From a virus, in the IMG/VR virus record IMGVR_UViG_3300018417_000026, positions 1 through 35,726 of that record: a stretch of DNA of 35,726 bases. One strand, written 5' to 3'. Below are positions 7,169 through 35,726 of this stretch, piece by piece. Each line of letters starts with the position of its first letter. Position 1 is the stretch's first letter. The notes under the pieces were generated by a model, which made no database searches, was not told the DNA's origin, and saw nothing but the letters and a program-made list of their open reading frames with translations. The position numbers and the translations under genes are program-made.

Positions 7169-8535
7169 TGGCTGAATATGATACAGTAGGGGTTGAGGAA
7201 GACGGATTTAAAGATCCCTCTAAAGTTTTTCCTAAAAAAGAATATATTAATGTAGCTTCTACTAACTTAGCTGCTAGAGGTATTATTCGTAATGAGCTTT
7301 ATACTGGGGGAGGGGATCGTGGGATTGATCTAGATCTAAATGATACTATAGCTTCACAATACCCCTTAAATCAAGTAAGAGAAACTATATCAGGTCACGT
7401 TACAGAGATTGATGATACTCCTGGCGGAGAAAGAATGCTATTTAAGCACAGAACCGGCGCCGGCGTAGAATTAAGAGCTGATGGAAGTGTTATAATTAGT
7501 TCAGTAAAAAACACCATTCGAATCTCTGGTGGAGATGAAAAAGTTATTATTGAAGGCGATGGAGAGATATCATATAATGGTAACCTGACATTAAACGTAA
7601 GTGGTGATTTTGATCTTAGGGTAGGTGGAGATTTTAATGTCAATGTTGGTGGCGATGAAGATAAAGATATAAAAGGATCATATCGTCAAAAGGTACATAG
7701 GAATCATGAGACAACAATTAAAAAGAATAAATCAAAATATGTATTAGGTTCTGAGACTGAAACAATTTATGTTGACAAAAATTCATTCGTAAGACAAGAT
7801 CTGAATGTTTTTATTGAAGGAGATACTAATCACTTTACTGGTGGTATTCTTACAATGACTGCTGAAGATGAAGTTGTACTTTCTTCTCCAAATATTAATA
7901 TCGGAGCTTCATCATTGACCGTTATCGGTGATAGTGGTACATTCGGTGGGGATGAAATTGTATATTATGGGAAGACAGCTCATATAGATCGAGTCAATAC
8001 TACATCAACACATTCAACTGCAATGTATGCTACTACATTCCATGGATCTTTAAATGGTAAAGCATCATTTGCTGCTGCCGCAGACCAAGCTGGGTCAGCT
8101 CCATTGGGACCTGGGTCTGGTGGTGGATCACAAACAATTGATAATACAGAAGCAACAAATAAAACTACTGTCGAAGTAGATAATATTATTATAGACGATT
8201 ACTTAAATGTTTCTAATAAAGGCGTTCGTAGGGTTAAAGTAGATTATGGCGACGGTCTTAAAAACCAAATTGATAAAACAGTAGATTACGGTGGAATATC
8301 AGCAAGACGATTAACAACACCAGAAGTTCGGTCTAAATTAAGAGATCCTATTACAATAGCAAATGAAAAATTTATAGGGTCTCAAATAGCAGAAGGTAAA
8401 TTATCAGCATCTTATATTAGACCAACACCTACATCTATTGGTAGAACAGTATCGAATGAACCTGGTATCAAGAGGGGTAGTACTCCAATTGGGAATTCTT
8501 CGAAGGGTATTAATAAGAGGTTTACGTCATCATGA
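7168..8535 (+). CDS. Central spike protein with gp5C-like beta-helix
   Basis: This 455-residue protein provides the needle that T4 gp5 carries at its C-terminus. Residues about 70-110 have an OB-exit pattern (ISGHVTEIDDTPGGERM, then HRTGAGVELRADGS) seen in VgrG and gp5 spikes just before the helix. Residues about 115-235 contain short beta repeats of the V-x-G type, such as LNVSGDFDLRVGGDFNVNVGG, as in the intertwined triple-stranded beta-helix of gp5C. The C-terminal 190 residues are different: a Gly/Ser linker near 305-320 and then a mixed region with no assignable domain. The protein should form a trimer at the tip of the hub together with the two upstream proteins. Its last codons overlap the next gene by 4 nt. 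Confidence 0.75.
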   Translation: MAEYDTVGVEEDGFKDPSKVFPKKEYINVASTNLAARGIIRNELYTGGGDRGIDLDLNDTIASQYPLNQVRETISGHVTEIDDTPGGERMLFKHRTGAGVELRADGSVIISSVKNTIRISGGDEKVIIEGDGEISYNGNLTLNVSGDFDLRVGGDFNVNVGGDEDKDIKGSYRQKVHRNHETTIKKNKSKYVLGSETETIYVDKNSFVRQDLNVFIEGDTNHFTGGILTMTAEDEVVLSSPNINIGASSLTVIGDSGTFGGDEIVYYGKTAHIDRVNTTSTHSTAMYATTFHGSLNGKASFAAAADQAGSAPLGPGSGGGSQTIDNTEATNKTTVEVDNIIIDDYLNVSNKGVRRVKVDYGDGLKNQIDKTVDYGGISARRLTTPEVRSKLRDPITIANEKFIGSQIAEGKLSASYIRPTPTSIGRTVSNEPGIKRGSTPIGNSSKGINKRFTSS

Positions 8536-20518: not shown

Positions 20519-20727
20519 TGAAGGATAATTATATAGAAATTCCAGATGCTCCCGGACTAGTAAGGGATCAGAATACTACCGCTTTATTAAATATAAATAG
20601 ATCTGAGGTAGAACAAGCAAGAGAAAGAAAAAAACTTCGTAAACAAAAAGAGAAAGAGTTCGAAGAATTAAAAAATGAAGTTAGTGAAATTAAGGGATTA
20701 CTTCTTAAACTTATAGAGAAACAGTAA
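20518..20727 (+). CDS. Small coiled-coil protein, conserved in marine T4-like phages
   Basis: This 69-residue protein has an N-terminal DAPGLVRDQNTTALLNIN segment and then a charged helix from about residue 28 to the end, rich in Lys and Glu (ERKKLRKQKEKEFEELKNE, then LLLKLIEKQ) with heptad-like leucines, so probably a coiled coil. I recall short proteins with the same G-LVRD-x-x-T-x-A-x-LN start and helical end near tail genes of cyanophages and pelagiphages, with no assigned function. Being read in series between two virion genes (TAATG upstream, 2-nt gap downstream) argues that it is real and may be an assembly factor or small virion component. Confidence 0.65.
   Translation: MKDNYIEIPDAPGLVRDQNTTALLNINRSEVEQARERKKLRKQKEKEFEELKNEVSEIKGLLLKLIEKQ
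20592..20599 (+). promoter_or_regulatory. T4-type late promoter motif inside the coiled-coil gene
   Basis: There is an exact TATAAATA followed by GAT, as at 12414, lying inside the 69-residue gene and 130 nt before the next ATG. It could supply extra transcript for the downstream fibre genes. Its position within coding sequence (Leu-Asn-Ile-Asn codons) means a chance match is possible. Confidence 0.4.
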
Positions 20728-23286: not shown

Positions 23287-24052
23287 CAGAAAAATCTTTA
23301 TTAACACAATGTATGAAGTGACATGCTATCGATGGTTCTCTTGTTATATGGTCTAAAATAAAATTCCAACCCATACCAATATTAGTAAAAGGTATATTGT
23401 ATCTTTCTAGTAAATAAGATACAAATACTTCATTATTTGGTATCCAGGCATCAGATATTAGTCCTGGATAAATATTATCATTCTTCGCCTGTTGCAATAA
23501 GTCCTTACATGGTTGTATATTTTCAGAAAATGCTAATTTTTCTATAGAATATTTATTAGCACCGAATACTCCTGTATTAACACATTCTTGACTACCAGTA
23601 ACTCCTTCAAGTAGTAGCATTGCATTTTTAGCACAGCATTTAACAAACATCTCCATTGGATCCCATTCAAATTCCCATTCTGTTATTCTCCAATGGAATA
23701 TATCGCGATCTGGTAATTTTGTAGATAAAGGATATATACAAAGATTATTTAAATCAAATCTATCAAAAAAATTTGTTAATGTTCTAGGTATTACATCAAA
23801 ATCTAGATATAAAACTTCATCATAATATTTACATAGCTCTTCTATTTTTAAAATCTTATCGAATTGTATAATATTATAATCGGTTTCCTTTGTAGTGAAT
23901 AATTCGTAATCAGCACCACAGGCTAAGGCATACTCTTTTTGTCTAGCCAATAAGAGATCTTTATATTCTAGAAATTGATTTCTTTTATAGCTAGTAGCTG
24001 ATTGGTGTTGATCAACATTATCAGTATATAAACTAAATATTATTCTTTTCAC
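23276..24052 (-). CDS. GT-A type glycosyltransferase
   Basis: This 258-residue protein has the shape of a GT8-like nucleotide-sugar transferase. The start is IIFSLYTDN, followed by ARQKEYALACGADYELF. The metal-binding DxD is LYLDFDVIP (Asp84, Asp86), and NTGVFGANK lies in the acceptor region. HFIHCVNKDF near the C-terminus probably supplies a further metal or sugar contact. The start codon is GTG, chosen because the alternative ATG codons would remove the first strand and because the paralogue upstream starts at the same place. The protein transfers a sugar to an unknown acceptor. It is the last gene of the island and overlaps the paralogous gene by 20 nt. Its 3' end overlaps a plus-strand gene. 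Confidence 0.72.
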   Translation of the reverse strand: MKRIIFSLYTDNVDQHQSATSYKRNQFLEYKDLLLARQKEYALACGADYELFTTKETDYNIIQFDKILKIEELCKYYDEVLYLDFDVIPRTLTNFFDRFDLNNLCIYPLSTKLPDRDIFHWRITEWEFEWDPMEMFVKCCAKNAMLLLEGVTGSQECVNTGVFGANKYSIEKLAFSENIQPCKDLLQQAKNDNIYPGLISDAWIPNNEVFVSYLLERYNIPFTNIGMGWNFILDHITREPSIACHFIHCVNKDFSVIL

Positions 24053-24815
24053 ACCAACCTCTTACAAAATTAAAATCTTTATTAATACAATGAATAAATT
24101 TCGTATTGTTTGGTATATAACTCCACTTATCCATAAAATAATGCCAACCTGTATCTAACAACTGTTGATAGGTTTTAACCTTATAGGCAAATACTGTTTC
24201 GTTATCATATCCAAATAAATTTCGAATATCATCTGGCCAGAAATCATCATTTATCAAATCGGTCATTAATTCTAAGGTATCGTTAAAATCACCGAAATAA
24301 TCTAACTCCTTTAATCCTTCTCTGGAAGCACCTATAATACCGGTATTAAATGTTTCGGTTTTTCTACCTAACATAGCTCTGGCATTCCAGCTTTTGGCTA
24401 AAGGTGATCTTACGCTATGTCTTTCTCGATCCTTATCTTTCCATCGACTATTCCAATCTTCAGACATAATTGCGATACCCTTTGACAGATCCCACTCTTC
24501 GAAGAAATTTAGTTTTGTAACTGGGATAACATCCATGTCTAGATATAGTATCTCGTCATAATCTAGCTGATATAACAAATGCATCTTATAAAAATTAATA
24601 ATATTATATTCAGATATTTCCGGGCCAAATTGTTTACTGAATTCAATATAGTTATCATCATAACCAAAGTGTTTATATTCTACGCCACAATGATTTGCGT
24701 ACTGTTTATGTCTATCTAATAACCAGTTATAATTCTTATTGAATTTATTTTTATTTTCGAAATGTGAAACAGCATTTTGTATATCAACATAGAAGCTGTA
24801 GATTATTCTAGACAT
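24033..24815 (-). CDS. GT-A type glycosyltransferase, paralogue of its neighbour
   Basis: This protein has 260 residues if read from the ATG at 24815; a longer form from 24845 adds ten residues with no counterpart in the paralogue. The chosen start gives MSRIIYSFYVD, matching the neighbour's MKRIIFSLYTD. The DxD motif is LYLDMDVIPVT (Asp93, Asp95). NTGIIGAS, NETVFAYKV and FIHCINKDF line up with NTGVFGAN, NNEVFVSYL and FIHCVNKDF of the next gene. The pair therefore comes from a tandem duplication and has diverged in the variable acceptor region. The role is sugar transfer to an unknown acceptor. It overlaps the methyltransferase-like gene by 8 nt with this start. Confidence 0.7.
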   Translation of the reverse strand: MSRIIYSFYVDIQNAVSHFENKNKFNKNYNWLLDRHKQYANHCGVEYKHFGYDDNYIEFSKQFGPEISEYNIINFYKMHLLYQLDYDEILYLDMDVIPVTKLNFFEEWDLSKGIAIMSEDWNSRWKDKDRERHSVRSPLAKSWNARAMLGRKTETFNTGIIGASREGLKELDYFGDFNDTLELMTDLINDDFWPDDIRNLFGYDNETVFAYKVKTYQQLLDTGWHYFMDKWSYIPNNTKFIHCINKDFNFVRGWCEKNNI

Positions 24816-25443
24816 AACCGATAACCATAAATCGTTTATAGCCATTTTCCATCTTAAAAGAGCCTTTGTACATTATCTTTGATAGTCTAGATTTTTCTAC
24901 AAGTTCATCCTCATTATTAACACAATTAATATGATCTTGAATGTGAAACATATTATTGCTTTGTAAAGCAAAAAGACAGCTAGACTTGTATTGTTTATCC
25001 TTTATTAATTCTGGAAGGTCTGGCATGTGCTCTGATGATGTGTTGATAACAATGTCCGTGTTAGGATCAAACTTATGAGGAGTCCTAACATCTCCACAAG
25101 TTGACTCTAATCGTTTATCACCAGTAGAATGTCTGTAATCCATAAACACGCGAATCGATTTTTCATCTAGATCAATATTATGAATTCTGTTTACGCTTAA
25201 ATTTTGAGTTAGCAAACGCGTTATTAGTATACCGTTCCACCCACCGAATAATTGTATATTGGCGTTTTTTATATTTGCCATCATTAATGAGTCTGTTAAC
25301 CATTGCTTAGACTCGATTTGTGATTTTGAAAAACTATCTAAGAAATGCTTTATGTCTATATTTAATTCAATAGCACGACGCATCGAAATGTATACAGCAG
25401 GGTCAATCCCAGTAATGTTCGAATCCATTATAGCCTTCATCAT
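24808..25443 (-). CDS. Class I SAM methyltransferase-like protein
   Basis: This 211-residue protein has a Rossmann-type methyltransferase pattern. The glycine loop is QLFGGWNGILITRLL (Gly67-Gly71), the acidic strand end is NIDLDEKS (Asp91, Asp93), a further acidic residue lies in CGDVRTP (Asp118), and DIVINTSSEHM (about 130-140) is the motif IV region. The GGW-G variant loop and N-T-S-x-EHM are shared with proteins I know from marine phage carbohydrate clusters. The likely role is methylation of a sugar or another small acceptor. The ATG at 25443 overlaps the preceding gene by 41 nt. An ATG at 25428, with AAGG five bases upstream, is a good alternative start. Confidence 0.6.
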   Translation of the reverse strand: MMKAIMDSNITGIDPAVYISMRRAIELNIDIKHFLDSFSKSQIESKQWLTDSLMMANIKNANIQLFGGWNGILITRLLTQNLSVNRIHNIDLDEKSIRVFMDYRHSTGDKRLESTCGDVRTPHKFDPNTDIVINTSSEHMPDLPELIKDKQYKSSCLFALQSNNMFHIQDHINCVNNEDELVEKSRLSKIMYKGSFKMENGYKRFMVIGYV

Positions 25444-26107
25444 CTAGTAAATATCTAGTTCCATTCCATTCGGTTTTTCTACGCCAGCCATTGAATATGC
25501 AAATATTATAGTCTGGTTCATAAAAATATTTTACTTCATCATGACCTGCTCTAAAATAATTATTTTCATGAACACCATAAAGCCTAGAATAAACTTCACC
25601 CTTTGGAAGATATAATAACTTATCAGATTGATTATGGTGTAGATATCCATCGATACCGTTATATTTAACCATATAATAATCTAGATCATGATCAAAGTGT
25701 TTCCATATTTCAGTACAATCACCTGACCATATCATGATAGAAGAATTTAAATTTGTATCTAATGGCTCTAGTTCATAAGGCTTCCAATACGCCTTAATCA
25801 TGCACAACATATCTTCAACACAATAATCTTTAAGGTGCGTGATATTATTTTGTATCACTACATCTAGATCTAAGAATAAGGTTGGGATACTGGTTGGATA
25901 TTCAAAAAGAGTAAGCTTCCACCACCAATTTTCTAAATCATAATCTGGCAAAGGCTGTATTATTACATTCCGATCAATACCATCTGCATTTTCAGTATAA
26001 CAAATAAAATTAAAATCATCATCAAAATTTTTACATACCATCCGATATAATCGATTAACGTGCTCGTGATTAAATTTATCACCCCATTTTAGACATACAA
26101 TATTCAT
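25403..26107 (-). CDS. Glycosyltransferase, GT-A fold
   Basis: This 234-residue protein has a GT-A layout. It begins NIVCLKWGDKFNHEHVNRLY, as in many phage and bacterial putative glycosyltransferases. FICYTENADGID follows, then ENWWWKLTLFEY and the metal-binding FLDLDVVIQNN (Asp80, Asp82). The C-terminal part has the SRLYGVHENNYF and CIFNGWRRK segments; this last Lys/Arg-rich motif after FNG is frequent in the family. It is not closely similar to the other two GT-A proteins here, so it probably adds a different sugar. The gene overlaps the carbamoyltransferase gene by 29 nt and the methyltransferase-like gene by 41 nt, implying coupled expression. Confidence 0.7.
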   Translation of the reverse strand: MNIVCLKWGDKFNHEHVNRLYRMVCKNFDDDFNFICYTENADGIDRNVIIQPLPDYDLENWWWKLTLFEYPTSIPTLFLDLDVVIQNNITHLKDYCVEDMLCMIKAYWKPYELEPLDTNLNSSIMIWSGDCTEIWKHFDHDLDYYMVKYNGIDGYLHHNQSDKLLYLPKGEVYSRLYGVHENNYFRAGHDEVKYFYEPDYNICIFNGWRRKTEWNGTRYLLDDEGYNGFEHYWD

Positions 26108-27590
26108 TAATTACCAACATATCCATTTCAGTTCTTTTATAAGTTGCTATTGCTTCTTCTGGTGTTTCAACAATTGGTTCTTGTGAATTAAAACTTGTAT
26201 TCAATACCATAGGAATTCCAGTAATCTTATAGAACTCATTAATTAAATCATAATACTTTTCATTCTGTTTTCTATTTACCGTCTGTATTCGAGCTGTATT
26301 ATCGACATGCGTTACTCCAGGAATCTGATCAGATTTAACTGGCATGATACGAGACATATACGGACTTGGTTGATTGGTATCAAAATAATGATGATAGTGT
26401 TCTTCCAATACAGATGGTGCAAAGGGTCTAAAATCTTCTCGCATTTTGATTGTTTTATTAATCCTATCCTTTATATTTGGATTACGAGGATCTGCTAGAA
26501 TACTACGATTACCAAGTGCTCGATTTCCTGATTCAGATTTACCTTGAAACCATCCTACTATTTTACCATCAGCAATTGCCTGAGCAACTTCTGTCAGATT
26601 AACTTTATGTTCACCTGTATATTCATATGCCTTACCACCATACATATCTGGAATATGAATATTACCATTTAAAGTATAATCAGCATGCATGTAGGTTCCA
26701 AGAGATTGTCCCTCATCGCCCGGCGCAGGTGGTATATGAACTCTTGTATAGTGTTTAGTAAATTCTTCATTCATATAACCATTGTATGCTACACCTCCAG
26801 CAATACAAAGATTATCACAAGATTTTAACGGTAAAACAAAATCATTAATCAATTCTTGGGTAGCACACTGTAAAGTATATGCGATATTTTCTTTATTAAG
26901 TATCGGGTGCCAATAAGAATCAAATATTATTTTTTTTAGGTTTTCATGGAATATAAAATTATTATCCAAATAATAATCTATATAACAATGAATCTCAGAA
27001 TTATATTCACCATATCCGGCGAGTCCCATTAACTTACCAGCCCCTAGATGACCGAATCCCATTTGTTTAGAAAAATAGTTCCACAAAATACCGATGCTCA
27101 TTTTATCAGATAAGTCGGTTATTGTTCCATTCTTGTCTATAAAAATACAATTAAACTTCCAGCCTCTGCCATCAATTGCTAATATATCCGATTCTTTAAA
27201 TCCCGAATTTAAATATGCATATGCTGCATGGGATTGATGATGATCAATATAGTATAGATTATCTTTTTGAAGATAATCCCAAAGTTTTTTGGGCTTAAAT
27301 TCTAAAAATTCTTGATCAATATTATGATGTGGTATCTGTTGTAGTCCACCAATTGTAGTAGTAAATGCTAGGAGTTGATGATCCTTCGGTTTAAAATATT
27401 CATTATAAAATGCTATTCCTGCACTATTATCATCTTGATTCATTTTTTCAGATTCAGAATCACTCGGATATGCATCAAAATGCCATGGAACATTATGTTT
27501 TCTACGAGTATATCTTTCACGCTGATTGTGGAAAATACCATCATATGTATTATGATCATGAGGACTTAATGCTACACTAAAGATTTTCAT
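26079..27590 (-). CDS. Carbamoyltransferase, NodU/CmcH/TobZ family
   Basis: This 503-residue enzyme transfers a carbamoyl group from carbamoyl phosphate, through carbamoyl-adenylate, to a hydroxyl of a sugar or similar acceptor. The N-terminal Kae1-like domain carries DHHQSHAAYAYLNSGF with His117 and His121 and then AIDGRG with Asp140. The spacing equals the iron ligands His114, His118 and Asp137 of TobZ. GAGKLMGLAGYGEY, LCIAGGVAYN and PPAPGDEGQSLG are also present. The C-terminal YrdC-like domain starts near 325 and includes IVGWFQGKSESGNRALGNRS, REDFRPFAPSVL and MVLNTSFN. All expected motifs are intact. The product may be a carbamoylated surface or virion sugar. Confidence 0.93.
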   Translation of the reverse strand: MKIFSVALSPHDHNTYDGIFHNQRERYTRRKHNVPWHFDAYPSDSESEKMNQDDNSAGIAFYNEYFKPKDHQLLAFTTTIGGLQQIPHHNIDQEFLEFKPKKLWDYLQKDNLYYIDHHQSHAAYAYLNSGFKESDILAIDGRGWKFNCIFIDKNGTITDLSDKMSIGILWNYFSKQMGFGHLGAGKLMGLAGYGEYNSEIHCYIDYYLDNNFIFHENLKKIIFDSYWHPILNKENIAYTLQCATQELINDFVLPLKSCDNLCIAGGVAYNGYMNEEFTKHYTRVHIPPAPGDEGQSLGTYMHADYTLNGNIHIPDMYGGKAYEYTGEHKVNLTEVAQAIADGKIVGWFQGKSESGNRALGNRSILADPRNPNIKDRINKTIKMREDFRPFAPSVLEEHYHHYFDTNQPSPYMSRIMPVKSDQIPGVTHVDNTARIQTVNRKQNEKYYDLINEFYKITGIPMVLNTSFNSQEPIVETPEEAIATYKRTEMDMLVINEYCMSKMG

Positions 27591-28395
27591 ATATATGTTC
27601 CGCTATTACGGCATGGCCCTTTCCAGTAGGATGGGCATCTCTCCAAGAAATCCTTAAATCTGGATTTTTATAAATTCTTAAGAATTCGGCTACAGTATAT
27701 CCCCCGAGACTGGGTACTATTGGATATCCAATAAAATTATTTTTCTTAACTTTAAGATTTTTTCGAATGAATTCGATAATAATTTCTTCTTGATCAATAT
27801 TATCTTTAATATTTCTTGTACTAACCATTTCTGGGGGTAGATCAAACCATTTCTGGTTAGATTCATCTTTTAGTTCTTCTAAATTTTTTATTTTATCGTT
27901 TACCGATAGCGATGATCCTAGCGCCACCCAATTTTCGTTTTTATTGGCCTCGAAATAATGTTCAAATAAAGCTATCATTTGGCAATGTTTATATGGTAAT
28001 TTATGGTATGAACAAAGCATTTCAAAACTCATATAATATCGTAATGATTCTCTTACCCATCCCATTATATTACCATATGGCTTTTCTCTTTTTCTTAACC
28101 AATCTAGACCACGAATATTGGGATGGTCTTCATAATCCAATCTTTGTGATTGCGACCAGGCGGCTATAACCATGCCAATATTATTCGTATCATGGGCTTT
28201 AATATAATCAAGTAGACTAGAATAAATGTATTTATTTCCTGCACCAGATATCGCCAGATTAACAACTTCCATTCCTAGTTTTTCTGCTAATATTTCAGGC
28301 CATTTTGGCCAGCTTGTATCTAGTGAAGGATAAGATATACTTTGATATTCTGCAGCAGTAAAACTACAACCGGAAACTAAAAGGATTTTTTTCAT
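27577..28395 (-). CDS. SGNH/GDSL-type hydrolase
   Basis: This 272-residue protein has the SGNH hydrolase blocks. GCSFTA near the N-terminus places the nucleophile Ser11. NLAISGAGNKYI (about 46-57) is the block with the glycine and asparagine, and DAHPTGKGHAVIAEH near the C-terminus supplies Asp253 and His255. The block III Asn is less clear; AAWSQSQRLDY occupies that region, as in related phage proteins. There is no signal peptide, so it acts in the host cytoplasm. In a sugar cluster such enzymes usually remove or transfer acyl groups. It overlaps the radical SAM gene upstream by 4 nt and the carbamoyltransferase gene by 14 nt. Confidence 0.78.
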   Translation of the reverse strand: MKKILLVSGCSFTAAEYQSISYPSLDTSWPKWPEILAEKLGMEVVNLAISGAGNKYIYSSLLDYIKAHDTNNIGMVIAAWSQSQRLDYEDHPNIRGLDWLRKREKPYGNIMGWVRESLRYYMSFEMLCSYHKLPYKHCQMIALFEHYFEANKNENWVALGSSLSVNDKIKNLEELKDESNQKWFDLPPEMVSTRNIKDNIDQEEIIIEFIRKNLKVKKNNFIGYPIVPSLGGYTVAEFLRIYKNPDLRISWRDAHPTGKGHAVIAEHIYENL

Positions 28396-29468
28396 ACTGA
28401 TCGTACCTGTTGTTTATCAAATTCTAATACATTAATACTGCATTTATGTTTACATTCATTTACTGGATCATTTCTTATGCTATCTTCTAAATGACGCTGA
28501 AACCAGTCATTATTTATTATTTCAGTTAACGGCTTATATCTTATGTTATTATCTAATCTATTTTCATTATATTTTTTTATAACTTCAAAATTGTAGAATC
28601 TTTCTTTATAGTTTTCTCTGTGATCAGCTGCACCAAAATAACAACATGGCCAAATTTGCCCGTCAAAATTAACATTTAAATGAGTTGTTTTTGCCCATCG
28701 ACATTCTATAGTTTTGGTCATAGATTCTACATTATGATAAAGAAAGGGTTTTTCGAAAGTTATATCTGCCCATTCTAAAGTTTCTGTTTCACCTTTTTCA
28801 TTATTAAATACTAATGGCAAATAGTTTCCTTCTTTATCCCGTTTAAACCTATCGCTCTTTACAAATTCGTGATATTGACTTCCATACTGATTAACTAGAT
28901 CTCGTATTTCTTGCATATAATCTTGATTGTGTTTAAATAGTATCGTTTGGGAATAGGTTTTAGAACCACCAGACTCACTGAAGGCTTTCATATTATTTAA
29001 GGCCTTTTGTAGACTGGTGTTTCTTCTATACTTATTGTGCATATTTTGGTTAATGCCATCTATATCAAAGGTTACATGTAAACTGCTTCTGCTAATTTTA
29101 TGTTTGTATGGCAAGCCCCCGAGTTTAAACCAAAAGTTTTCATCCCTCATAGAACCATTAGTATAAACGTATATGTTGGAGTGAGGTTTTAGATTTTTTA
29201 AAAAATGATTTATAATTTCGAAAATATCCGGATTAACCATTGCATCACCCCAGGTAGGACAAAGGGTTATGCTTTTTACATTGGCATTTAGTAATTGTTC
29301 TCTACTGTAATGTTTTCGAATATCATCTATTGACCAGTTTACAAGAGGTATATTTTCTTTTTTCTTTAAATTATTTTCTTTGTCTGTTCTATCACACTGT
29401 GGGCACTTTGCATTACAATAGGTTGATACGTCTATAACTAATGTTAACCCTTTTTTTAAATCCCACAT
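28392..29468 (-). CDS. Radical SAM enzyme with SPASM/twitch-like C-terminal domain
   Basis: This 358-residue enzyme binds a [4Fe-4S] cluster through CNAKCPQC (Cys18, Cys22, Cys25) and would cleave S-adenosylmethionine to start a radical reaction. The partial TIM barrel continues with SITLCPTWGDAMVNPDIF and IYVYTNGSMRDENFW. The C-terminal part has Cys256, Cys275, Cys276, Cys339 and Cys343 in CRWAKT, WPCCYFG and ECKHKC, consistent with a second iron-sulfur cluster of the SPASM or twitch type. The family acts on peptides, sugars or alcohols, and the substrate cannot be read here. It is followed by the SGNH hydrolase gene with a 4-nt overlap. It lies 3 nt after another radical SAM gene. Confidence 0.82.
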   Translation of the reverse strand: MWDLKKGLTLVIDVSTYCNAKCPQCDRTDKENNLKKKENIPLVNWSIDDIRKHYSREQLLNANVKSITLCPTWGDAMVNPDIFEIINHFLKNLKPHSNIYVYTNGSMRDENFWFKLGGLPYKHKISRSSLHVTFDIDGINQNMHNKYRRNTSLQKALNNMKAFSESGGSKTYSQTILFKHNQDYMQEIRDLVNQYGSQYHEFVKSDRFKRDKEGNYLPLVFNNEKGETETLEWADITFEKPFLYHNVESMTKTIECRWAKTTHLNVNFDGQIWPCCYFGAADHRENYKERFYNFEVIKKYNENRLDNNIRYKPLTEIINNDWFQRHLEDSIRNDPVNECKHKCSINVLEFDKQQVRSV

Positions 29469-29471
29469 TTA

Positions 29472-30296
29472 TTATAAAGCTCCCCAGACAGCTGGGCTTT
29501 CAGTTGTTAAAATTCTAGCAGTGTGCGCAGCACCACGGTTAAGTGTTTCTGTACAAGTTTTACAATACTCTTCAAATTCGAATAGCTCAAAGTTCATCAT
29601 CTTGTCTATATTTTCTTTTGTAATATCAAATTGTCTAGAACCTTTAATTACCTTTTTACTACAGTGCCGGATTTTTTGTAATTCAAAATCAATTACTGGT
29701 ACTGATGGAAATGCTGCACATACTCTTCTAACGATTTCTGGCTCTTGTTCTTCTTTCTCCCACCCGGGCGCGCGGGAATTAAAATGTTTAAATTCGGTAT
29801 TCTTATGATCAATTATTGATAGATCATGATTCTCTCTATACTTAAAATAATTAGGAGTCATTATTACTACATTATAATTGTTCTTATCATTCTCTTCAAA
29901 AAAATCATAGTTACCTAACTTTTCAATTCTATCCTCATAAAAATCTAAAACAAGATGTTCCATATAGAGAATATCTGGATCCTCTAATATCCATGGGTAT
30001 CTTTTACGGATAAATGAATTTGAAAGAACTGAACAAACAAGATTATCATAAGATTTAATCCTATGAATAACTTCATCTAAATTTTTTATAAGACCTGGTT
30101 CGCCGCCGAGTAGATTGATTCTTGTTTTATATGGGCTTAAGTATTCTAGGATTTTATTCGCGAAATCCATGTCAACTGTTAGGTTTCGCATTTCTAATGT
30201 CCAAGCTGTACAATAGTAACATGACTTATTGCACGACTTGGACAAATAGAAATCTATACCTAGATGAGAATCTTTTATATCATTTAAAGAAAACAT
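29472..30296 (-). CDS. Radical SAM enzyme
   Basis: This 274-residue enzyme has the cluster motif CNKSCYYC (Cys22, Cys26, Cys29) preceded by GIDFYLSKS, and a glycine-rich SAM motif INLLGGEPGL (about 60-69). LVCSVLSNSFIRKRYP fits the next barrel strand. The C-terminal third has scattered cysteines in RVCAAF, RHCSKK and EEYCKTCTE. These may bind an auxiliary cluster, although the spacing does not match a full SPASM domain. It is not closely similar to the neighbouring radical SAM protein. The ATG lies 21 nt after the nitroreductase stop in a very A-rich gap without a clear Shine-Dalgarno sequence. Substrate unknown. Confidence 0.78.
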   Translation of the reverse strand: MFSLNDIKDSHLGIDFYLSKSCNKSCYYCTAWTLEMRNLTVDMDFANKILEYLSPYKTRINLLGGEPGLIKNLDEVIHRIKSYDNLVCSVLSNSFIRKRYPWILEDPDILYMEHLVLDFYEDRIEKLGNYDFFEENDKNNYNVVIMTPNYFKYRENHDLSIIDHKNTEFKHFNSRAPGWEKEEQEPEIVRRVCAAFPSVPVIDFELQKIRHCSKKVIKGSRQFDITKENIDKMMNFELFEFEEYCKTCTETLNRGAAHTARILTTESPAVWGAL

Positions 30297-30317
30297 AACA
30301 AATTATACTTTTTTTAT

Positions 30318-31067
30318 TTAAGCAACGTCATCCACTATAACGTGCTTATTATGTGATTGGAATCTTTTTTCAGTTTTGTGATGCATAAGCCTAGATCTAG
30401 TTGGATCAGGATATCCAATCCCCATTAATAATAACGCGGGCTCGGTTTCTCCTAATAATCTACTAATTTCCTCCATATCACCACATTGGCAACAACCTGA
30501 AGAATATCCCAGCATATTTGCAGTAAGTGTTAAATAGCCTGCTCCAATTCCTAGAGCAACACTTTCATCACGCGAAACTGCACGGTGCTCTAAGCTTTCA
30601 TCTAGGTGTCTGCCAGTTTCTCGTTCTTCCTTTGTTCTATATCCCTCAGAAGGATCTCTATCTCTAATAAATGCTACAAGAAGATTTCCAAGAACCTGTG
30701 GATTTGTACTCATATCTGAGTTATCATAAATCCTTTTTGTCCAAAGATCCCCTGGTACTCTAAGATAATCGTTTCGAATTGCTTCATCTACGGATTTAAA
30801 TCCTAATTGTTCTAATGTAAACCAATCTTCTTTTTCTTTACTCCAATACCCAGCACCGCCTGTTGTCTTATAGATCTTTTCGATGATATCTCGATTGGTT
30901 ATGAATTTACATTTATAGAAGACGCGATTTTGTTTTGAAGAACATTGTGTAACTGAAGTCTTTAGTGTACTAATATCTTCAGCTGGGATCTCTTTACTTA
31001 AATCCCAATTTCTTTGGCATCTCTGACTTTTTGCTATTGTTTTTTCTAGAAATCTGTTAAATGACAT
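30318..31067 (-). CDS. Nitroreductase-fold flavoprotein
   Basis: This 249-residue protein appears to have the nitroreductase fold, which binds FMN and usually acts as a homodimer. The N-terminus has RCQRNWDLSKEIPAEDI, the phosphate-binding Arg and helix start of the family. A central helical insertion spans about 60-160. SVALGIGAGYLTLTANMLGYSSG (about 169-191) is the helix pair near the flavin, split here by its position before CCQCGD. Relatives oxidise or reduce varied substrates, including peptide azolines, flavins and nitro compounds. It has its own late promoter motif and a strong GGGAGGT ribosome-binding sequence 6 nt before the ATG, so it may be expressed separately from the upstream part of the island. 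Confidence 0.72.
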   Translation of the reverse strand: MSFNRFLEKTIAKSQRCQRNWDLSKEIPAEDISTLKTSVTQCSSKQNRVFYKCKFITNRDIIEKIYKTTGGAGYWSKEKEDWFTLEQLGFKSVDEAIRNDYLRVPGDLWTKRIYDNSDMSTNPQVLGNLLVAFIRDRDPSEGYRTKEERETGRHLDESLEHRAVSRDESVALGIGAGYLTLTANMLGYSSGCCQCGDMEEISRLLGETEPALLLMGIGYPDPTRSRLMHHKTEKRFQSHNKHVIVDDVA

Positions 31068-31098
31068 CGTTGACCTCCCGTCATTGAATGCTTGTTTT

Positions 31099-31122
31099 TA
31101 TACAGATTAAAAAGTCTGTATA
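31099..31122 (-). promoter_or_regulatory. Perfect 8-bp hairpin in the leader of the nitroreductase gene
   Basis: On the minus strand TATACAGA and TCTGTATA pair perfectly around an 8-nt loop. The loop contains the stop codon of the preceding broken gene. It is followed by A residues, not a T run, so it does not look like a terminator. It begins a few bases after the late promoter motif and may stabilise the 5' end of the transcript. Confidence 0.5.
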
Positions 31123-32088
31123 TTCACATTATTTATATTAGTTGGGTCAATTGTTGTCTCAATTCTATTCGGTTTTCCGTTGCATATCCTATAGCATCTT
31201 TGTGGCGCTATACCCTTGGATAAATTATCATAGAATTCTAACCATTCATCTGTTAACAAGATTTCTTCTATTGAATCATAATCATCAATCTTACTAACTT
31301 TTAATAATTTAGCTACCTGAGGATCTTCTCTAGTAGTCCCGTTGTCTAGTTGGCAGCAAGGTATTAACTCGGCTAAGTTTGTTATAGCAAGTTGCATTCG
31401 ATTACGCGGATTGTCACTACAGCATTGTGGGTAAAGGGGTTTTTTCATCATTTATCAACTCTATATTTTTTATCTGGTTTAAAAGGATCGATTTGGTCAT
31501 CTGACCTCCTCCACCTAGATGAATTTAACATATGAAAGGTGATATCATTTTCTATAGCTATTTTCTTAGCTTCTTCTATGTTATCTTGATTATATTTAAA
31601 TACGATATATTGCCAGCGCGGCTTTGGAATAAGATACTTTTTAGATTCTAACATCATGTCGAATAGTTTTTGGCCATCTTGATTTATTCTATATAAACAG
31701 CTTTCCTCAGGAAGACCATCAATACCAAACCACCACTGTGCATTAGGATTTGCTTTATATGCTTCTATATACCATTTCTTAGGACGAGCTAAGATGCAAC
31801 ATGAACATGAGCGCTTACTTTTTTATCCTTAGTTAATTTTAAAAATTCTATAAATTGGGGATGATGAATTGGATCTGATAACTGACCACAAAAATTGATT
31901 TTTTCAAAATGATTAACTACTTTCTTAAATTGATCTATCGTTAAATTGTTACCTCTGACTGGCAATCCATTATTTGTAAATTCTATCTGTCTTTGACATC
32001 TTGGGCATTCTAAACCACATTTATTCCCGATATCAATATTTACTTCGTTTCTAGAAAAGAAGTTTTCATATGCGGAGAATTTAGTCAT
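31107..32088 (-). pseudogene. Broken radical SAM/SPASM gene, two frame changes
   Basis: Three open segments join into one radical SAM protein. The N-terminal part (31789-32088) has CGLECPRCQRQ (Cys24, Cys28, Cys31) and FCGQLSDPIHHPQFIEF, and stops at TAG after HVHVAS. The next segment is open in the -1 frame from just before that stop and reads ARPKKWYIEAYKANP, WWFGIDGLPEES, LYRINQDGQKLF and RWQYIVFKYNQDN, a direct continuation; it stops at 31448. The third (31107-31451) is again -1 and carries PLYPQCCSD, LIPCCQLDNG and RCYRICN, a SPASM-like end. Its ATG overlaps the second stop (AAATGATG). A strong Shine-Dalgarno sequence precedes the first ATG. Either the gene is decaying or the assembly has two indels. 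The tail segment could still be translated by reinitiation. Confidence 0.8.
31130..31137 (-). promoter_or_regulatory. T4-type late promoter motif upstream of the nitroreductase gene
   Basis: The minus strand reads an exact TATAAATA, 62 nt before the nitroreductase ATG and inside the 3' end of the broken radical SAM gene. It is the only exact copy I found on the island strand, suggesting that the distal genes (nitroreductase onward) are boosted late in infection. Confidence 0.55.
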
Positions 32089-32095
32089 AGTACAA

Positions 32096-32103
32096 ACCTC
32101 CTT
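32096..32103 (-). promoter_or_regulatory. Strong Shine-Dalgarno sequence of the broken radical SAM gene
   Basis: The minus strand reads AAGGAGGT, a full match to the anti-16S core, 7 nt before the ATG at 32088. It is the strongest ribosome-binding site I see on the island, kept in front of a gene whose reading frame is interrupted. Confidence 0.75.
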
Positions 32104-32106
32104 CGG

Positions 32107-33162
32107 TTATACCATTATCCCTATAATCATACCCGTTGTATGAATTTCTTCTTCTGTAACCCAAGGATGAATAGGTAATGATAAAATAGTATCACTTGCT
32201 ATTCTAGAATTTATACCAGTCTGGCTTTGAAACAGACTGTTACTTGATATAGGTGCTTCATAATGTATTTTTGCACCAAGCTCATCTTTTACTTCATCTC
32301 TTATTTGTTTATTCTCAAACCTTACTACATATTTATGGTAGTTATGAATAAGACCATCATGAGACGTCTGGACAACTGTAGGCAAATCTTCTAAAAGTTC
32401 ATTATATTTATTTGCTATTTCTATTCTTTTTAGTTGGTACTCTTCCATTCTATCAAATCGAAATTCTATAAAGGCAGCATTCATATAATATAATTTTGAA
32501 TTATACCCAAGTATTTCGTAGTCGTTACCCTTACCATGTCGTCTGAGTTTACGAATAAGATCTGCATCTTCCCTTTTGTCGGTAAGTACAATACCTCCAC
32601 CAGAAATACCAGCAATTACTTTGTTGTTATTGAAACTAAATGAACTGATATTACCAATACTTCCAGCCTTTCTATTATTAAGACTTGATCCTAATGATTG
32701 AGCAGCATCCTCAATAAATGCAATGCCTCGATCTTTGCAGTACTCTTCAATCTCCTTTGTTTCAGTCATGTTGCCGAACAAATGAGTGTATATAAGAGCT
32801 TTTGTTCTGTCGGTAGTTTTTCTCTTAATTTCCTCGAATGTTATATGATAAGAATCGAGATCAATATCACAAAAGACTGGCGTAGCGCCTGCCATAAGAA
32901 TACATGATGCAGATGAAATCCATGAAAAATCGCTAACTAATACCTCATCCCCAGATCCTACACCATAGCACTTAAGAGAATAATAGAGAGCATCAGTAGC
33001 GCTACTAACTGCAATACCATATTGTCTTCCGGTATAGTCTGCTATTTTCTTTTCTAGAAATTCCACATTTCTATCATTATCTTCCTGCATTACTTTATCG
33101 AAGAGCTTCATGTACTCTTCTTTGTTTTCCAGGTAATCTTTATCCCAACCTTCATAATTCAT
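32107..33162 (-). CDS. DegT/DnrJ/EryC1/StrS sugar aminotransferase
   Basis: This 351-residue PLP enzyme of fold type I would transfer an amino group, normally from glutamate, to a nucleotide-linked keto sugar. Visible motifs are GIAVSSATDALYYSLK, the GDEVLVSDFSWISSAS segment, ATPVFCDID, IEDAAQSLGS with Asp152 for the PLP ring nitrogen, and SFSFNNNKVIAGISGGGIV with Lys181 as the Schiff-base lysine. HPWVTEEEI is the typical C-terminal end. The length is slightly short of the usual 370-390, with the N-terminal arm shortened. It provides an amino sugar precursor for the glycosyltransferases. Its 5' end overlaps the GT-B-like gene by 11 nt. Confidence 0.93.
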   Translation of the reverse strand: MNYEGWDKDYLENKEEYMKLFDKVMQEDNDRNVEFLEKKIADYTGRQYGIAVSSATDALYYSLKCYGVGSGDEVLVSDFSWISSASCILMAGATPVFCDIDLDSYHITFEEIKRKTTDRTKALIYTHLFGNMTETKEIEEYCKDRGIAFIEDAAQSLGSSLNNRKAGSIGNISSFSFNNNKVIAGISGGGIVLTDKREDADLIRKLRRHGKGNDYEILGYNSKLYYMNAAFIEFRFDRMEEYQLKRIEIANKYNELLEDLPTVVQTSHDGLIHNYHKYVVRFENKQIRDEVKDELGAKIHYEAPISSNSLFQSQTGINSRIASDTILSLPIHPWVTEEEIHTTGMIIGIMV

Positions 33163-33976
33163 TTACAATATTCTCCACGTCTGGTTCTAATATCCGTCTT
33201 TTCCAATATACCTGAGCACCTCTATTTTCAGCTTCAAATATAATAGGCTTATGATAGTATATACATTCCTGTATTATTCTCGGTGCAGGATCAAGAATGG
33301 GCTTTGTGTACACGTACGTATCAAAGATCCCAAGCAAATTATCTATTGGTACAATTATATGGTTTAGTCTTGGGTCAATTACACCTATATCATAAACCAT
33401 TATCCCATGCGATTTATATTTCTTTATAACTGATCTTGCTGCATTATAGTATTGTCTATTTGTACCATTAAAAAGATATTTAAATTGCATATCTTTTTCT
33501 AAAGGCTTGTAAATATTAAAATAGATTCTTTTTTCAAATGGTTTACCTGTTCCATCCGGATAAACGTCATAATCACAAAGATCAACTATTTCTTCTGGAT
33601 AAAAATAGTGAATAGCATCTTGGTATTCTCTTAAATGGTTTTCAGAATATACAGCTAAAACTTTACCCTTAAAGGCCAAATGTAGGATAAGAAGCTGATC
33701 CATAGTATATGATTCTCTATTCAAATAAGCAAGAGTCATCATACTTCTTCCCATGATCAAGGTCATAGGACCTTCATCTATATCATTAAATACAAGATTT
33801 TGTATTGTAATGTATTTTTGTGATAAAGAATTGAAATAATCTTCTACTGAAAAATGCGGATGAGTCACTATTACCAATTGTGTAGGTATACCTATAGAAT
33901 TTAGATATGAGCAGTACTCATAACTGTAATACAGTAATCCGTCACATGGTTTAGCAGTACATAGTATATTAATCAT
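33152..33976 (-). CDS. Glycosyltransferase-like protein, probable GT-B fold
   Basis: This 274-residue protein is the first gene of the island. The N-terminus is INILCTAKPCDGLLYYSYEY, followed by IPTQLVIVTHP, resembling the acceptor-binding half of GT-B enzymes. Near the C-terminus, GIFDTYVYTKPILDPAPR and IIQECIYYHKPIIFEAENRG have the shape of the donor-binding motif of GT4-like enzymes (a Glu in a P-x-x-I-x-E helix, then a strand). The rest is not assignable. I recall similar proteins next to DegT aminotransferases in marine phages. It overlaps the aminotransferase gene by 11 nt. Donor and acceptor are unknown, and a non-catalytic role is possible. Confidence 0.5.
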   Translation of the reverse strand: MINILCTAKPCDGLLYYSYEYCSYLNSIGIPTQLVIVTHPHFSVEDYFNSLSQKYITIQNLVFNDIDEGPMTLIMGRSMMTLAYLNRESYTMDQLLILHLAFKGKVLAVYSENHLREYQDAIHYFYPEEIVDLCDYDVYPDGTGKPFEKRIYFNIYKPLEKDMQFKYLFNGTNRQYYNAARSVIKKYKSHGIMVYDIGVIDPRLNHIIVPIDNLLGIFDTYVYTKPILDPAPRIIQECIYYHKPIIFEAENRGAQVYWKRRILEPDVENIVNEL

Positions 33977-34021
33977 ATAATTTCATCGCATTAATTATTT
34001 TAGGTCATTTTATATATGCAT

Positions 34022-34033
34022 TGGCTTAAGCCA
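34022..34033. repeat. 12-bp perfect palindrome in the divergent intergenic gap
   Basis: TGGCTTAAGCCA is a perfect inverted repeat in the 125-nt gap (33977-34101) between the island's first gene and the plus-strand virion genes. A minus-strand TATATAAA (34009-34016) lies on one side and plus-strand late motifs on the other. It could be an operator or a short hairpin. Confidence 0.45.
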
Positions 34034-34045
34034 TATAATTTTTAT

Positions 34046-34078
34046 CATAAATAGATCAGTACTGTTCTTTTATAAATA
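34046..34078 (+). promoter_or_regulatory. Late promoter motifs for the fibre genes
   Basis: There is an exact TATAAATA at 34071-34078, 23 nt before the next ATG, and a one-mismatch CATAAATA at 34046-34053 followed by GAT as at the other late sites. An AAGGAT ribosome-binding sequence lies between the exact motif and the ATG. Confidence 0.72.
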
Positions 34079-34101
34079 AAGAAAATAAGGATCATCTACT
34101 A

Positions 34102-34464
34102 ATGGCTCATTACGAAGAATTTGTAATTCATCAAGGTGCAGATATAGCAATTCAGATAGAGTTAGAAGACGAAAATGGTGGCGCTAAGAATTTATCCAAT
34201 TACAGCGTCTTTTCTTCTATGAAAAAAAGCTATAATTCAAGTACATCATATGATTTTAATACGATCATCGTAGATCCGCCGGCGAGCGGAATCCTGACAT
34301 TAAGTATGAATAATACTCAAACAGATGCTATTCCATCTGGTAGATACCTCTACGATACCTATATTACATTTACTGATAGTGATGGCGCTACTGTGTCTGA
34401 AAAAATCTTAGAGGGACGAATAGAAGTAATTGCTAATATCAGTAGTATTTCTGGTGGCGAATAA
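34102..34464 (+). CDS. Small virion protein, beta-sandwich (baseplate/fibre adaptor type)
   Basis: This 120-residue protein is of a kind frequent beside fibre genes in marine T4-like phages. It begins EEFVIHQGADIAIQIELEDE, then NLSNYSVFSSMKKSYNSS, IIVDPPASGILTLSMNNTQT and a YLYDTYITFTDSDG, ILEGRIEVI ending. The Q-G-x-D-x start, a K-S pair in the middle and the final EG-x-x-x-V strand resemble the N-terminal domain of BppU-type receptor-binding protein adaptors. It probably forms a small beta-sandwich linking fibre and baseplate. It is the first gene after the late promoter and lies 12 nt before the fibre gene. Confidence 0.6.
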   Translation: MAHYEEFVIHQGADIAIQIELEDENGGAKNLSNYSVFSSMKKSYNSSTSYDFNTIIVDPPASGILTLSMNNTQTDAIPSGRYLYDTYITFTDSDGATVSEKILEGRIEVIANISSISGGE

Positions 34465-34476
34465 TAGGTAGGTTCA

Positions 34477-35726
34477 ATGGCAACAAATATTAAAAACTTT
34501 GATGTTGGTACCGGTACCTATATCAAAAAGGTTACAATAGGTACCCCGATCAGAGCGGTTACCTCCGGTACTTTCTCACTCTTTAATATCGATGGTGTTA
34601 CGGCTACTAGAGCTGATGTAGGTCATCATGCTCTCCTCATATTCGATTCTTCTTCAGAAGCAGCTGATGGTGGTGGATTTATAACTTCAACGAGTTTAGA
34701 TAAACTACAAATTGGTAATGTTTTATATGATAGCACCGGTGCTAGAAATCTTGATGATGGTATCTTTAAAGTACAAGGAAGATTACAAGTTTCAGACTAT
34801 ACAACTGTAGCTGCTGATTCTGATCTTACTTCAAAATATTTTGTAGACAACGAAATAGAAAAACTCAAATATCTTGTAATCACAACAGATGATAATTTTA
34901 CAGATTCTATAGGAATATATGACCAAGAGACAGTTAGAATATTTGGTCTGAATACTGTTAAAACCTCAGCACAAAAAATTGGAAATCAGTATCAGCTTAA
35001 GGTTGGCCTTGATAGCACAGCAAATACAGCTTTAGTTCGTAGTTATTTTAGTGCTGGAGGTGATCTTGCATATAATGAAAGTAGTGGTGTATTCAGTATT
35101 AATGTTGAGGCTGTTTATGCCACTGTCGATTTTGATTCTGATTTAGATGCAGCACTTACAAATAGTGTTAATATAGAGTATGATAGTAGCAATAATTCAT
35201 TCGATCTAAGTACAACTGGAGTTGATTCCGGGACATATGGTACCGCTAGTTTAGTACCACAATTTACTGTAGATCGTTATGGTAGAATTGATAGTGTTGG
35301 TGAAATCTCAGTTGCTGGGGTTGATAGCACATCATGGGATTCTTCAACGTCTCAATTCATAATTAATACCGCTGACGGGGGAATATACAGAACTACTATT
35401 AATGGCTTTGGTGATAACCAGACATTGACATTTGGTGATGATGGTGATCTTACGATCAAACACGATGCAAATAATTTTAGAACAGTAATTAATAATGCAG
35501 GATTTGGTGATTTAAGGATCCAGAGCAACAATGTAAGATTGATGGGTGCAGCGGGAACAGAAACCCTTCTTCATGGTACAACCGGTGGATCAGTTAGTGT
35601 TTATTGGGACAATAGTAAAAAATTAGAAACAACTACTTATGGCGCTACTGTAACTGGTACACTAAATGCTGATTCTTCTACAGTAACAAACCTGACCGCA
35701 GACTCTGGAACAATTACAACTTTAAA
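34477..35726 (+). CDS. Tail fibre protein (partial, runs off the right edge)
   Basis: The gene starts at an ATG preceded by AGGTAGG and stays open to the window end, so about 416 residues are visible. The N-terminus MATNIKNFDVGTGTYIKKV leads into beta-rich repeats. Fibre-like segments are YGTASLVPQFTVDRYGRID, which recurs in many phage fibres, and a C-terminal sequence of strands including WDNSKKLETTTYGATVTGTL, where the shaft gives way to a tip-like motif. The protein is rich in Ser, Thr, Asp and Gly, like a trimeric fibre shaft. The end of the gene, which would carry the receptor-binding tip, is outside the window. It is likely the main long fibre or an early fibre segment. Confidence 0.72.
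   Translation, partial: MATNIKNFDVGTGTYIKKVTIGTPIRAVTSGTFSLFNIDGVTATRADVGHHALLIFDSSSEAADGGGFITSTSLDKLQIGNVLYDSTGARNLDDGIFKVQGRLQVSDYTTVAADSDLTSKYFVDNEIEKLKYLVITTDDNFTDSIGIYDQETVRIFGLNTVKTSAQKIGNQYQLKVGLDSTANTALVRSYFSAGGDLAYNESSGVFSINVEAVYATVDFDSDLDAALTNSVNIEYDSSNNSFDLSTTGVDSGTYGTASLVPQFTVDRYGRIDSVGEISVAGVDSTSWDSSTSQFIINTADGGIYRTTINGFGDNQTLTFGDDGDLTIKHDANNFRTVINNAGFGDLRIQSNNVRLMGAAGTETLLHGTTGGSVSVYWDNSKKLETTTYGATVTGTLNADSSTVTNLTADSGTITTL

Follow-up and report, generated by a model that had tools for sequence, protein, structure and literature searches.

Radical SAM enzymes of the twitch and SPASM kinds have an auxiliary domain that is, according to part of PMC9012708, a C-terminal extension of the same chain. 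The same part of that source describes SPASM enzymes as single chains that typically hold two auxiliary clusters, and it calls direct evidence for the role of the auxiliary clusters in SPASM/twitch enzymes long elusive. The twitch domain of SkfB has five conserved cysteines, four of which are at ligand positions (PMC6231123, in part). In pelagimyophages, radical SAM cassettes are found in the host recognition cluster together with glycosyltransferases (PMC7029224, in part). The gene ahbD is one of 14 globally conserved viral genes named by the authors of VIBRANT (PMC7288430, in part), and work on Baltic Sea viruses gives 261 ahbD calls and three contigs with both PF13186 and PF04055 (PMC9301287, in part). 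A split radical SAM/twitch enzyme is not described in the parts consulted of PMC9012708, PMC7029224, PMC7892664, PMC6231123, PMC9301287 and PMC7288430, and we found no description of one in the literature searched, which for the most part did not include subscription papers.

The DNA analysed here (the window) is the 35,726 bases of IMG/VR virus record IMGVR_UViG_3300018417_000026, an incomplete genome. One of its loci probably encodes a two-gene radical SAM/twitch enzyme of a type that belongs mostly to marine viruses, with the core gene interrupted in this record.

Layout of the locus and its relatives

Three reading frames, A, B and C, lie consecutively on the minus strand and each is -1 relative to the one before it (Table 1). 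The initial annotation had described them in this way, and the strong ribosome-binding site that it reported is present, as is CxxxCxxC. It had taken the two shifts between the frames to be breaks in a single radical SAM/SPASM gene, and this part of its reading holds for the first shift, which is private to this record, but not for the second, beyond which lies a separate ORF in most relatives.

Table 1. Features of the radical SAM locus and its neighbours in the window
Feature	Position	Strand	Remarks
DegT/DnrJ/EryC1 aminotransferase family	32107..33162	-	PF01041, E 1.8e-78
Ribosome-binding site AAGGAGG ahead of core gene	32103-32097	-	seen in sequence
Frame A, N-terminal half of radical SAM core, 99 aa	32088-31789	-	CGLECPRC; core profile 4-95
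CATGTTCATGTT, codes for HVHV	31809-31798	-	gapless alignment of relatives
Frame B, C-terminal half of radical SAM core, 114 aa	31792-31448	-	core profile 96-204; open upstream to 31822
Break 1, TAG stop of frame A	31789..31791	-	core frame lost here, in this record only among scored loci
Break 2, ATGA overlap of core stop and small-gene start	31448..31451	-	conserved gene boundary
Frame C, gene of its own coding for a free-standing SPASM/twitch-like protein (114 aa)	31451-31107	-	conserved Cys 10, 32, 33, 86, 90
Second radical SAM protein, 274 aa	29472..30296	-	PF04055, E 4.5e-6, below curated cut-off
One-chain radical SAM + SPASM protein, 358 aa (fused architecture)	28392..29468	-	PF04055 and PF13186
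Carbamoyltransferase	26079..27590	-	neighbour in window

A core profile built without the window matched frame A over positions 4-95 (domain E 8.1e-39) and frame B over positions 96-204 (domain E 2.9e-51). Since the first match ends at 95 and the second begins at 96, the cut is clean, and the core is complete and interrupted once. The C profile, of which the window is itself a member, matched frame C (E 5.8e-35). No other comparable damage was found when the window was covered with stop-to-stop ORFs of at least 140 aa: the stretches outside these ORFs were the locus (31098-32106), 33983-34467, which contains a 120-aa ORF, 20519-20708, which contains a 69-aa ORF, and seven of 34 bases or fewer. 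Rfam and tRNA scans of the window found none, and megablast of positions 24000-35726 against phages gave no match.

The core served to draw all of the related loci, and the sample would therefore miss any C gene that has no core. An IMG/VR scan seeded with frame B gave 122 relatives, from which the best 80 were used, and a second set added 79 new loci from the best 80 of 539. Together with 11 bacterial or archaeal loci and the phage Mosig these made a set of 171 loci, which was scored by core and C profiles and formed 78 clusters at 90% identity of the core. By locus, 159 were split, seven were fused, four were without C and one was without a scored core; by cluster, 70 were split, one was split with one truncated member, four were fused and three were without C. 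The locus without a scored core is L157, in which the match stops at the contig end, and it stands outside the 170 loci used below. Those without C are L102 (its contig ends 1 nt later), L072 (reversed order), L094 (25% identity, with its C match in another ORF) and L122 (C cut by the contig end). In the fetched sequence, window included, the C profile had 205 hits: 177 directly after the core ORF, 16 within it, one less than 700 nt from the start of its locus, and 11 classed as having no core upstream. Among these 11, L080, L051, L041, L060 and L079 overlap the core by more than the 30-nt limit; L009, L072, L146, L156 and L111 were inspected individually, and L151 has the same coordinates as L146. 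One scan seeded with C gave no relative and another gave just the source contig of L003.

The two interruptions of the reading frame

The core crosses the point of break 1 in one ORF in 168 of the 170 scored loci, and the other two, L007 and L073, are truncated at contig ends. In the first 80 loci, A and B were in one frame in 77; the exceptions were L007, L073 and L078, and the core ORF of L078 does cross the break 1 point. The initial annotation had proposed to look for an intact copy in close relatives; the relatives compared here lack break 1 but share break 2, as a gene boundary. Homology passes from A to B at TCT TAG (31794-31789), where there is no homopolymer. A run of six A lies upstream at 31824-31819, and we rejected a homopolymer error exactly at break 1 because the junction is outside the run and the relatives match frame A beyond it; this makes that type of error less likely and leaves an assembly error live. 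A search with an exact 23-base pattern for a near-identical record found none, and such records may be left out of this search. As far as comparison of the loci can tell, a recent lesion and an assembly error, both proposed at the outset, are the live options for break 1. The core is present twice in relatives L122 and L009, so this incomplete genome may likewise have another, intact copy elsewhere.

The tandem CATGTT duplication that had been pointed out just before the first break is present as CATGTTCATGTT, and we considered it as the cause of break 1. It was rejected because the relatives align without a gap: 91 residues of A align to 273 nt of L006, and VHVHNAS in L003 faces AHVHVAS in the window. 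Because the relatives are gapless across it, the repeat is conserved coding sequence rather than an insertion.

At break 2 the pattern is a different one. In 71 of 78 clusters the small gene stands immediately downstream of the core as an ORF of its own, and in four it is fused to the core. Its frame relative to the core is +1 in 44 clusters and -1 in 27. Its start, if the first ATG is taken, lies anywhere between 79 nt upstream and 5 nt downstream of the core end; the long overlaps depend on that choice. The most frequent arrangement is the window's ATGA overlap (20 of the 71 split clusters), and the start codon is ATG in 70 of the 71. A strong Shine-Dalgarno-like 4-mer was found ahead of 21 of 71 C starts and 11 of 66 core starts, and ahead of 40 of 1020 ATGs internal to the core. 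In the first 80 loci the part that matches C was mostly another ORF with its own start. Given the separate start, the Shine-Dalgarno-like signal and the varying frame, independent initiation fits better than does slippage or decay, and break 2 is, on this comparative evidence, a conserved boundary between the core gene and a stand-alone SPASM/twitch-like gene.

In-frame fusions are represented by L115, L068, L078 and L082. The fused state requires four changes when mapped on a tree of 77 cores, and well-supported branches force at least two of them. When the tree is rooted with outgroups, the first-branching ingroup rows (L075, L093, L079 and L080) are all split, although the outgroups sit on long branches and this rooting is tentative. 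A split ancestor followed by several re-fusions would be the simplest reading, but it is not proven.

We have weighed these observations against the idea that one gene decayed twice, with both shifts being recent lesions in a once-fused radical SAM/SPASM gene. The existence of fused versions in four of 78 clusters agrees with it, as does the restriction of break 1 to this record among the scored loci, and decay stays live for break 1. For break 2 it is already refuted by the conservation of the boundary, which is common to 71 of 78 clusters; moreover, all of the motif cysteines are intact, dN/dS is low in most pairs (see below) and the four first-branching ingroup rows are split, tentative as the root may be. 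As an account of both shifts, decay is extremely improbable. Programmed ribosomal frameshifting, by which the overlapping frames would yield a fused protein, also seems highly improbable. Heptamers of a suggestive kind lie near the two junctions (AAAAAAG at 31824 and AAAAAAC at 31445) and natural fusions are known among the loci, but at neither break did we find a conserved frame relation together with a slippery site at the junction. At break 2 a shift of +1 would be needed in 44 clusters but one of -1 in 27, the overlaps run from 79 nt to a 5-nt gap, the AAAAAAC of the window sits past the stop of frame B, and C precedes the core in L009 and L072. At break 1 the interruption is found in no relative, and AAAAAAG, the sole such heptamer near the A/B overlap, is by coordinate arithmetic out of phase for X XXY YYZ with frame A, which the relatives still match downstream of it. 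Slippage at break 1 is not supported, and the suggestion in the initial annotation that slippage restores the frames was rejected for both breaks.

The small protein might also act independently, as an Fe-S or scaffold protein for other enzymes of the cluster and not for the adjacent core. In several clusters C is followed by a 274-aa radical SAM gene, L156 and L111 carry additional C copies apart from the core, and in L090 (5627-6673) C continues into a stretch that by eye is glycosyltransferase-like, an extension in which no Pfam or NCBIfam family was found at E<=0.01. Yet relatives of the 274-aa gene occur in just 9 of 41 clusters (flanks up to 4 kb), and 177 of 205 C hits directly follow the core ORF and 16 share it, in loci that were drawn by core. 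We consider an independent protein unlikely and favour two subunits of one enzyme.

The core, the small protein and their surroundings

The three cysteines of CxxxCxxC are invariant in the cores of 71 of 71 split clusters. The core is about 210 aa long in most relatives, and PF04055 matched 20 of 27 cores. The predicted model of the core of a relative, L003 (pLDDT 93.3), has the six strands of a partial (beta/alpha)6 barrel. Its top structural matches were BlsE (Z 15.0), MoaA (14.9), SuiB (14.8), viperin (14.3) and SkfB (14.3); the absence of families from the VIA match lists was not taken as evidence. The match is limited to residues 100-301 of SuiB and 101-302 of SkfB; the core is therefore a barrel that lacks the auxiliary domain. 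The nearest NCBIfam family by count is TIGR04317, a tungsten cofactor oxidoreductase radical SAM maturase, with matches to 26 of 26 cores (best E 1.9e-13). The L003 core reaches just 30.8 of the 380 bits set as the curated cut-off and covers positions 6-177 of 349, which makes it a relative of this family and not a member.

Some cores are longer. Those of L025, L037 and L046 (303-325 aa) extend about 90-115 aa beyond the usual 210, and C is still a separate ORF there; in L075 (1438-2883) the core has a long N-terminal extension with weak matches to NAD synthase and TilS. In L156 an ORF with an SGGADS motif (3547-4227) lies beside the C gene. An ATP-pyrophosphatase may work with the radical SAM core/C enzyme.

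The C proteins are about 100-155 aa long across the relatives, and the five cysteines listed for frame C in Table 1 (window numbering) are invariant in 71 of 71 pairs. Of 25 C proteins, 19 had PF13186 at E<=0.1 (the best at 3.5e-7), and an NCBIfam twitch radical SAM model matched seven of 24; the window's own C had no Pfam or NCBIfam match. A Foldseek search of the PDB with the model of C (pLDDT 83.7) found nothing at E<=0.001, and the sole VIA match of this model among 45 chains, to BtrN 162-249, is weak (Z 3.1, rmsd 3.8, 82 aligned). Sequence searches of the PDB with C and with the natural fusion of L115 found no twitch enzyme. These results point to a SPASM/twitch-like protein, the fold of which is not settled by the model matches, and one auxiliary cluster is more likely on it than two.

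Of the 25 pairs of related loci compared, 22 had a dN/dS of C below 0.3; the other three gave 0.37, 0.75 and 0.82, the last two being pairs with different start choices. The core reached a dN/dS of 2.2 in two pairs with almost no synonymous change. In some pairs the core dS exceeded what can be computed, and several pairs nearly duplicate one another or belong to one lineage, so the values lend support and do not amount to a count of independent tests. Core and C distances were correlated (Mantel r 0.767, with 0 of 1000 permutations as high), a correlation that any two linked genes would be expected to show.

In Mosig, a cultured phage of Pelagibacter, the pair is gp84 and gp85, which overlap by 8 nt and are annotated 'putative molybdenum cofactor biosynthesis enzyme' and 'hypothetical protein', respectively; of 50,697 records searched by tblastn with frames B and C, Mosig alone gave a match. 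In the bacterial/archaeal collection C was a separate ORF at the core end in 10 of 11 matching contigs, many of which may be viral. The pair in L088 (4962-5929), on a 228-kb contig of a Hyphomicrobiales genome, lies between the genes for GMP synthase and SbmA/BacA (three neighbours were tested), a context that argues that the pair is not solely viral. Among genomes of the order to which G001 belongs, G001 included, 2 of 397 matched.

The DegT aminotransferase, the 274-aa radical SAM protein and the carbamoyltransferase each had relatives close to the pair in 9 of 41 clusters, within one branch and in flanks of up to 4 kb that were often shorter. This company might hint at a sugar or surface-glycan substrate, which is a weak guess from the neighbours in one branch. 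Directly after C in the window, the ORF at 30318-31067 matches nitroreductase (PF00881) at E 5.8e-4, slightly short of the curated cut-off; its relatives were found near the pair in one of 41 clusters with the window protein and in seven of 41 with the Mosig protein. Mosig gp83 (L083:4829-5695), labelled a molybdenum cofactor enzyme, matches the window ORF at 33152-33976 at 49%; this ORF had no Pfam or PHROG hit, and gp83 is probably mislabelled.

Comparison of the sampled loci gives separate genes, conserved motifs, conserved pairing and a private first break; complex formation, cluster binding, translational coupling and the substrate are matters on which we infer. Gene 1 (frames A and B here) is a complete radical SAM core, by its sequence with CxxxCxxC and by the six-strand partial barrel in the predicted model of a relative, and gene 2 (frame C here) is, by comparison, the SPASM/twitch-like auxiliary-cluster domain that is elsewhere a C-terminal extension and here a protein of its own. 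The start codon of gene 2, which mostly overlaps the core stop, would couple translation so that both subunits are made together. The subunits may then dock like the two domains of BtrN or SkfB, with the small one holding an auxiliary Fe-S cluster that would serve the substrate radical. In this record gene 1 has lost its frame once, near 31790, with either the virus or the assembly at fault, so the whole core cannot be made from the record as written.

The small gene is found in other arrangements too. The second pair in L009 is reversed, with C (6440-6811) followed by the core (6811-7470); in L072 a C ORF that starts with GTG immediately precedes the core and follows what by eye resembles a terminase ORF; and L146 has two C genes in a row. 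We put forward, tentatively and as the less probable case, that the free-standing twitch subunit is an exchangeable auxiliary-cluster module of marine viruses and at least one bacterial chromosome, one that is duplicated, placed before or after the core, fused to it or run into a glycosyltransferase-like stretch, and that perhaps serves more than one radical SAM core. Such a module could explain many of the half-enzyme 'ahbD' calls in viral metagenomes, and it would constitute a radical SAM system whose auxiliary cluster comes from a separate, dedicated polypeptide.

Relationship to described radical SAM systems

A cluster domain on a separate subunit could be added, omitted or swapped without mutation of the core. 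It also bears on annotation, which may count the halves as separate incomplete genes, the 'hypothetical' small gene of Mosig being a case in point. As a hypothesis, the viral 'ahbD' calls may each come from one half of a split radical SAM/twitch pair: a total of 261 against three contigs with both domains (PMC9301287, in part) is a pattern that split genes could produce. On the side of differences, the NCBIfam families listed at E<=0.01 for 26 cores number 25, and no AhbD model is one of them. The pelagimyophage cassettes (PMC7029224, in part) resemble this locus in the type of phage and in a glycosyltransferase-rich neighbourhood, as in the gene table of Mosig; they differ in that the main text of that source has neither 'SPASM' nor 'split'. 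In the gene table of Mosig the small gene is annotated as hypothetical.

Among the enzymes themselves, SuiB, anSME and PqqE represent the SPASM type, defined by PF04055 with PF13186. PF04055 was found on most of our cores and PF13186 on most of our small proteins, and the L003 core aligns to SuiB 100-301, but C has just five invariant cysteines. The twitch enzymes BtrN, MoaA and SkfB share with the pair a CX3CX2C core with a six-strand partial barrel that is followed by a small, cysteine-rich domain. In them the auxiliary domain is in the same chain, whereas here it is encoded by a separate gene in 71 of 78 clusters. The locus is best described as a conserved two-gene version of a known kind of enzyme, here with an interrupted first gene.
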